Origin: FCB group bacterium
Lineage (GTDB): Bacteria; Fidelibacterota; Marinisomatia; Marinisomatales; JAADGP01
Direction: 5' to 3'
Assembly (NCBI GenBank): GCA_013152315.1
Contig: JAADGP010000145.1
Span: forward strand, 1 to 32,249
Length of the DNA: 32,249 nucleotides
Shown: piece by piece, positions 6,307 to 23,270 of the stretch
Layout of the letters: each line of letters starts with the position of its first letter
Numbering within the stretch: the first letter of the stretch is position 1
Notes under the pieces: generated by a model
Database searches by the model: none
Seen by the model: only the letters and a program-made list of their open reading frames with translations
What the model was told of the DNA's origin: nothing
Translations under genes and position numbers: made by a program

Positions 6307-6350
6307 TTATTCCCGCGGGGATAAGTTCGTGTTAAAATCAGCGCCTGATT

Positions 6351-6395
6351 CCGACAGTCGCTCCGTTCTACCGGGATATCCACTTTGTTCCGACA
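6351..6395 (+). repeat. Degenerate copy of the 45-bp intergenic core, locus 4
   Basis: CCGACAGTCGCTCCGTTCTACCGGGATATCCACTTTGTTCCGACA; same 45-nt length as the other cores with no gaps, followed by TGTTTCA. Confidence 0.75.
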
Positions 6396-11019: not shown

Positions 11020-11244
11020 GGGCCAAGAGCCAAGAACCAAAATTCACGTTTCACGCATCACGTTTCCCCGACAGTCGTTGCGTTCCATCGGGCTCTCCGC
11101 TACATTCCGACACGTATCACGCATCACGTATCACGTTTTCCCGACAGTCGCTCCGCTTCGTCGGGATCTCCGCTACGCTCCGACACGTATCACGTCTCCC
11201 CGACCGGCGCCGCGTTTCGTCGGGCGTTCCACTGCATTCTTCCA
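11020..11244 (+). repeat. Composite intergenic repeat, locus 2: CAA/CACG 7-mers, cores 11068-11112, 11141-11185, 11200-11244 separated by 28 and 14 bp of 7-mers
   Basis: Three gap-free 45-bp cores counted directly; spacers cgtatca-cgcatca-cgtatca-cgttttc and cgtatca-cgtctcc. Confidence 0.9.
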
Positions 11245-23166: not shown

Positions 23167-23270
23167 CCCGAGTCACGCAACACGTTTCCCCGACAATCGC
23201 TTCGCTTCGTCGGGGTCTCCGCTCCGCTACGACACGTTTCACGCTTCACGTTTCAACGCATACGTCACGT
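23167..23270 (+). repeat. Composite intergenic repeat, locus 3: core 23190-23234 flanked by 7-bp units
   Basis: CCGACAATCGCTTCGCTTCGTCGGGGTCTCCGCTCCGCTACGACA (45 nt) then cgtttca-cgcttca-cgtttca; ends at the stop codon of the minus-strand gene. Confidence 0.88.

Follow-up and report, generated by a model that had tools for sequence, protein, structure and literature searches.

The short repeats found between genes in the analyzed window (the whole stretch of 32,249 nucleotides) are, with a probability of roughly 0.7, copies of a very small non-autonomous hairpin mobile element, herein referred to as X, which inserts mostly 5' of the dinucleotide CA. The source genome, that of a marine-type bacterium, is a 2.08-Mb draft in 163 contigs, a Fidelibacterota/Marinimicrobia bin, Fidelibacterota being the current name of the phylum. 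All counts given here are based on profile, BLAST, and pattern searches together with extracted sequence stretches.

X forms a genome-wide family. Searched with a profile made from 33 copies, the 2.08-Mb draft gave 107 matches, and BLAST gave 46, which bears out the intergenic repeat family of the original prediction and the dispersal process that it implied. The six 45-nt cores originally listed for the window were all recovered. Five of them have 2–10 mismatches to the family consensus, and the sixth (11200–11244) is decayed, with 15 mismatches; the best chance match in 30 shuffles of the window had at least 19. The mobile unit is offset by 2 nt from these cores, both of its ends lying 2 nt further 5'. 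The densest group is on the plus strand and starts with a heptamer array identified by pattern match at 11045–11065 (CACGTTT CACGCAT CACGTTT). It continues with a full copy at 11066–11110 (6 mismatches, R1 profile E-value 9e-18; earlier core 11068–11112), a 28-bp array of four heptamers at 11111–11138, and the best copy at 11139–11183 (45 nt, 2 mismatches to the consensus; earlier core 11141–11185), which lies in junction phase between the heptamers CACGTTT and CACGTAT. Two more heptamers (14 bp, 11184–11197) lead to the decayed copy at 11198–11242, whose 3' end is lost (R1 profile E-value 1.6e-4, model positions 4–48). On the minus strand, the window contains a full copy at 2875–2919 (8 mismatches, R1 profile E-value 3.6e-15; earlier core 2873–2917) and, at 2955–2977, a half unit of 23 nt (45 minus 22; profile match to model positions 1–28) followed by 35 bp of heptamers. 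The spacer lengths of 28, 14, and 35 bp reported earlier are correct. The remaining plus-strand copies are located at 6349–6393 (10 mismatches), with almost no flanking array, and at 23188–23232 (6 mismatches; earlier core 23190–23234), followed by CACGTTT CACGCTT CACGTTT.

X is built as YCCCGA-loop-TCGGGR-TCTCCRCTNCGYTCCGA, and in most cases CA comes next. The element is hairpin-forming DNA of about 33–45 nt, with typical copies of 32–51 nt. Its ends are direct (CCGA ... CCGA), without terminal inverted repeats, and adjacent copies are arranged head to tail in one orientation. The junction CACGTTT-X-CACGTTT places X exactly between heptamers, 5' of the single CA of each unit. Phase was scored over 62 copies of the source genome with the final two bases excluded. 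The end of the upstream heptamer coincides with the start of X in 52 copies and the start of the downstream heptamer with its end in 44, compared with 0–5 copies at each of the other six offsets on either side. The reported phasing of cores with a 7-bp lattice therefore holds. The dinucleotide CA directly follows X in 53 of the 62 copies, although it was not scored; these are not independent events, because recombination between arrays may have spread copies in this genome.

The spacers between X copies are ordinary CACGNNT heptamer arrays. A two-unit CACGNNT pattern matched the source genome 119 times and the reversed-pattern control did not match at all; it is the spacers, not X, that are heptameric tandem repeats. 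Many arrays are free of X, with no core within 160 bp for about half of the sampled array positions. The core and the heptamers are separate entities. Two further repeats accompany these arrays. A second heptamer type (CAAGAAC/CAAGAGC/CAAAAAC) often adjoins them, both in the window (11023–11041) and at many other loci of the source genome (for example, L004 and L019). A third dispersed module, CAGATTCTNTNTCTCAGCCTTNATGGATATCCAAAAATGAAGAATA, is often located after the heptamers and was found at 11 distinct sites in the extracted stretches (L005, L009, L013, L018, L019, L026, and L028).

The lattice itself has a simple origin, because X inserts beside CA and each heptamer contains one CA. The single CA fixes the phase and orientation of X, and whole-heptamer distances are multiples of 7. 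Spacers were measured for 13 adjacent pairs: 10 are multiples of 7, and three (13, 34, and 41 bp) equal 7n−1, owing to an array unit that is one base short and retains six. Core lengths also vary. Among 61 near-complete copies in the source genome, 54 are 45 nt long and seven are 43, 44, or 49 nt long, and at least nine distinct, precise 23-nt half units (45 minus 22) are present. The original prediction had named variable core lengths or off-lattice spacers as fatal to it. Its strict form, with cores of exactly 45 nt and spacers that are all multiples of 7, is refuted by these exceptions, and a looser form, true of most copies, survives. A special length-measuring process, which the 7-bp spacing had been taken to suggest, is unsupported.

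The same arrays can be used to argue that X is not mobile in this genome. X could have arrived once in a heptamer array and spread with it by gene conversion or unequal exchange, so that the lattice would be no more than a homology register. Arrays adjoin nearly every copy of X, in one orientation and phase, and tandem copies are separated by 7–35 bp of array. The arrays are abundant and changeable, and their content is wholly different between orthologous sites. We nevertheless regard this explanation as rather unlikely. The window copy at 6349–6393 is almost array-free, and X with clean ends and no array is present in uvrA-derived segments of another phylum.

No other finding argues as strongly as these segments that X inserts as a unit and is more than a part of the arrays. 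In CP054189 (Chthonomonadaceae, Armatimonadota; a complete genome in a single contig), X is located inside segments encoding the C-terminal part of UvrA (L257 and L229). Uninterrupted uvrA-derived paralogs are present in the same stretches, resulting in three filled/empty pairs, in which the empty sites are paralogs within one genome of another phylum and not strains. With X in square brackets, the first pair (X32) is GACGTGAT[TCCCGAAGGTCGGGATCTCCGCTTCGCTCCGA]CAAAACGG filled and GACGTGATCAAAACGG empty. The second (X33) is ACACGAT[TCCCGGCAAGCCGGGATCTCCGCTGCGCTCCGA]GATCGTG filled and ACACGATGATCGTG empty, and the third (X33, other strand) is CTG[TCGGAGCGAAGCGGAGATCCCGATGTGTCGGGA]GACGTGG filled and CTGGACGTGG empty. 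The ends are clean, and no target-site duplication was found in any of the three pairs. Replication by slippage, as suggested earlier, suits the heptamer arrays. It does not suit X, which is array-free and cleanly inserted in coding sequence here. In CP054189, the segments coding for the UvrA C-terminus occur several times over, and at least three X copies landed in them. In-frame insertion into uvrA was considered as a general rule and rejected, as the copy in L229 shifts the frame.

X content also differs at orthologous intergenic sites. The window is syntenic with, and 83–90% identical to, a genome of the same genus (G001), whose Y1 hits are identical to those of the genome to which the Neomarinimicrobiota contig L044 belongs; the gene flanks align, while the intervening repeats differ. 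At the site of the window copy at 2875–2919, the second genome has an orthologous heptamer array without X, and the site corresponding to 6349–6393 has no recognizable X. Upstream of gatC, the source genome has three X copies, whereas G001 has one truncated copy and a long CAAGAGC array; the CAAGAAC-type array is strongly expanded at this site. At C37 and C51, a 23-nt half in the source genome corresponds to a full unit in G001. The difference is exactly 22 nt, and the two GCTNCGCTCCG repeats lie the same distance apart.

In the proposed mechanism, X would insert cleanly, without target-site duplication, and mostly just 5' of CA, and most copies in the source genome would have entered pre-existing CACGNNT arrays. 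Slippage within arrays and recombination between them would then alter the spacing and probably add copies at a site. That array recombination adds copies in the source genome is very likely, on a comparison of two species that does not separate this process from insertion. Deletion between the two GCTNCGCTCCG repeats would produce the half units. X itself may move as a folded single strand, either by an enzyme acting in trans or by replication or repair acting on the hairpin.

Folding of X involves two elements. The 5' palindrome YCCCGA-loop-TCGGGR has a stem of 6–7 bp and loops from about 4 nt up. The tail TCTCCRCTNCGYTCCGA contains a 7-nt mini-hairpin, GCTNCGC (GCGNAGC on the other strand), in which the loop base N35 varies freely. 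Mini-hairpins with a GNA loop are unusually stable in DNA. Positions 32 and 38, the outer pair of the mini-hairpin, have the highest mutual information of 990 position pairs. This pair is A-T in 18, G-C in 27, and G-T in 2 copies of the source family, and in the other phyla it is G-C in 56, A-T in 6, A-C in 4, and G-T in 1. For the named structure, 20 cells changed on both sides, a value that 0 of 500 shuffles reached (shuffled mean 8.8), and sliding the partner by 1–3 columns destroyed the signal. The folding energy of a single X strand is only mildly better than that of shuffles (z from −0.3 to −2.1) and by itself unremarkable. Covariation supports the GCGNAGC mini-hairpin, and the structural case is good but not proven, because the shared ancestry of two subfamilies (the A-T and G-C forms) explains part of it.

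A conserved mini-hairpin pair could also indicate that X is kept for a function, as a terminator, an RNA-stability element, or a protein-binding element of intergenic regions. Genuine copies do lie in intergenic array sequence, and the reading frames that cover them are short (82–130 codons) and look spurious. Such a role is nonetheless very improbable. There is no T run after the hairpin, the fold scores are weak, and no arrangement of neighboring genes is favored (tandem 16, convergent 7, divergent 5; same strand 10, opposite strand 6). X is rapidly lost and gained at orthologous sites, its presence is patchy, and an Rfam search with X gave no match.

The distribution of X extends far beyond the source genome. 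Searching 84,980 species genomes for TCGGGNTCTCCNCTNCGYTCCGACA yielded 48 stretches, where about 0.06 matches were expected from base counts. These stretches belong to Bacteroidota, Acidobacteriota, Desulfobacterota, Planctomycetota, Armatimonadota, Calditrichota, and Fidelibacterota. Across the seven phyla, the element is nearly identical in its right half and built on a common plan. The palindrome loops are lineage-specific, being different between lineages and alike inside one: TACGCTACGCTA in one Bacteroidales genome, TGGAA in a Planctomycetota genome, and CCTTTCGG or CCTGCCGG in a Bacteroidetes genome. Within Fidelibacterota, only 4 of 245 genomes gave a match to the exact tail.

In the other phyla, several copies of X occupy host-specific arrays (CATCCAG, CAAGACCG, and CATTACCC) and keep the array phase on both sides, as in ATCCAG-X-CATCCAG, AAGACCG-X-CAGGACCG, ATTACCC-X-CATTACCC, and ATGACCG-X-CATGACCG. 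The same ends of X in unrelated arrays of other lineages are a further argument against a passive passenger of one array. The initial search pattern ended in CA and was biased for this reason; with a CA-free pattern, CA follows X in 26 of 31 retrieved copies. Transfer between phyla may explain this distribution. Plasmids and phages were rejected as vehicles, since X had no match in the plasmid collection or among viral contigs and only one weak partial match in phages (E-value 0.3). A variant tail, TTTCCGCTNCGCTCCAACA, in which C28-G42 has jointly changed to T-A, recurs in Desulfobacterota and Armatimonadota (L251, L252; G013, G015) and is perhaps a sister element of X. Loci of Acidobacteriia AH_259_A11_L15 (L258 and others, G002) contain long chains of CCTTCGACAAGCTC, CTTCGGCTGCGCTCAGGG, and TCTCCGCTTCGCTCCGA, in which X tails are interspersed with a second, very common dispersed motif.

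No mobilizing enzyme for X was identified among the Y1 transposase and reverse transcriptase candidates. A possible mover in trans is an IS200/IS605-like Y1 (HUH) transposase or a RAYT, which would act on single-stranded hairpins in the manner suggested for REPs and REPINs. A hairpin element inserted without target duplication beside a fixed dinucleotide would suit such an enzyme, and of 18 X-bearing genomes tested, 16 contain Y1_Tnp; the remaining two, both drafts, had no match. However, the X tail is present in 0 of 30 Y1 loci (89 kb) from X-bearing genomes. The only Y1_Tnp of the source genome scored 73.7 bits against NF047646 (REP_Tyr_transpos), just under the cut-off of 80, and its gene has another REP family (GTACGTCAAGC..GCTTGACG) on either side. 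On this evidence a Y1 enzyme is a doubtful mover of X, and RAYT was rejected as a candidate. At the RAYT-like Y1_Tnp locus L109 (G000:C76, about 51.4–54.7 kb), dense REPs, GTACGTCAAGCATCCTTGCTTGACGG and CGACAACCGAGGACGGTTGTCGTAC, lie on both sides (780–1150 and 1845–2145), and a sequence similar to the X tail, TCTCCACTGCGTTATGCCAGACA, is present in some of their loops.

Spread through an RNA intermediate, by reverse transcription in trans, has been proposed for some cyanobacterial SDRs. The conserved structure with compensatory change is consistent with such a route for X, and an RVT_1 gene was found in 7 of 14 X-bearing genomes tested. This route is improbable, as no RVT_1 match was found in the source genome, which has the most X copies, or in six other X-bearing genomes, all of them drafts. 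Reverse transcriptase was rejected as the X mover because the source genome has no RVT_1 match.

On the reading preferred here, X would work in the manner of Nostoc SDRs, Rickettsia RPEs, or REPs. By description, its nearest known counterparts in kind are the SDRs (small dispersed repeats) of Nostoc. SDRs are reportedly dispersed repeats of 21–27 nt that are essentially confined to one cyanobacterial group. They are said to be often embedded in tandem heptamers, to insert at a short fixed motif, and to share a hairpin backed by compensatory changes. No enzyme is known to move them. X likewise consists of small dispersed copies, embedded in heptamers in exact phase, with a structure backed by compensatory changes and a short fixed insertion motif. 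It differs from this description of SDRs in its length (32–51 nt), in combining a constant tail with a lineage-variable palindrome, and in its presence in at least seven other phyla. Rickettsia palindromic elements (RPE), described from Rickettsiales, are small palindromic elements cleanly inserted in coding sequence. X is similar to them by description in its clean insertion in coding sequence, and RPEs are larger. The SDR study (Elhai et al., 2008, Genome Res 18:1484) is cited in PMC3116915 and PMC2884548.

Other known repeats are more distant. The CGTC-tagged REPs are short, palindromic, and patchily distributed in many phyla, with no associated transposase known (Di Nocera et al., 2013, PMC3733652). 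Their tag is located directly beside a stem of 8–9 bp with a loop of 4–5 nt, and they form mostly head-to-head dimers (PMC3733652). X is also patchy in many phyla, and its other strand, TG-TCGGAG, resembles the TGTC variant of the tag. However, in X a 14-nt GNA-hairpin stretch, GGAGCGNAGCGGAG, separates TGTC from the stem, which is 6–7 bp long with variable loops, and the copies are arranged head to tail. The GTAG REPs and REPINs associated with RAYT are, like X, non-autonomous hairpin elements and are thought to move via single strands (PMC2817692, PMC3116915). Unlike them, X has no GTAG tag at either end, forms no inverted doublets, and, as described above, has its tail in none of the Y1 loci. 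X also lacks the terminal inverted repeats and target-site duplications of MITEs derived from DDE transposons. The CACGNNT and CAAGAAC arrays belong to the same general kind as other heptameric tandem repeats, such as the TAACTGA arrays (PMC4679880) and cyanobacterial STRRs, which are arrays and nothing else; X, by contrast, is an insert distinct from the arrays that contain it. A literature search by sequence did not find the X sequences in the papers covered.

The movement of the smallest dispersed bacterial repeats is a long-standing question, for example for the CGTC REPs without a known transposase (PMC3733652). X has a defined sequence, sharp ends, duplication-free filled/empty sites, and many hosts; its mover can therefore be searched for by strain comparison. 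It also provides a simple reason for an apparent 7-bp lattice. That seven phyla have almost the same tail implies either that a unit of 33 nt has spread laterally or that a recognition site is under strong constraint. In a more far-reaching reading, which we offer only tentatively, X would be an element of only about 33 nt that spreads horizontally through at least seven phyla, almost unchanged in its right half, and multiplies in each lineage with a palindrome loop of that lineage's own. It would be moved by a novel enzyme or replication process, and for it targeting of CA within arrays may provide a safe intergenic harbor.
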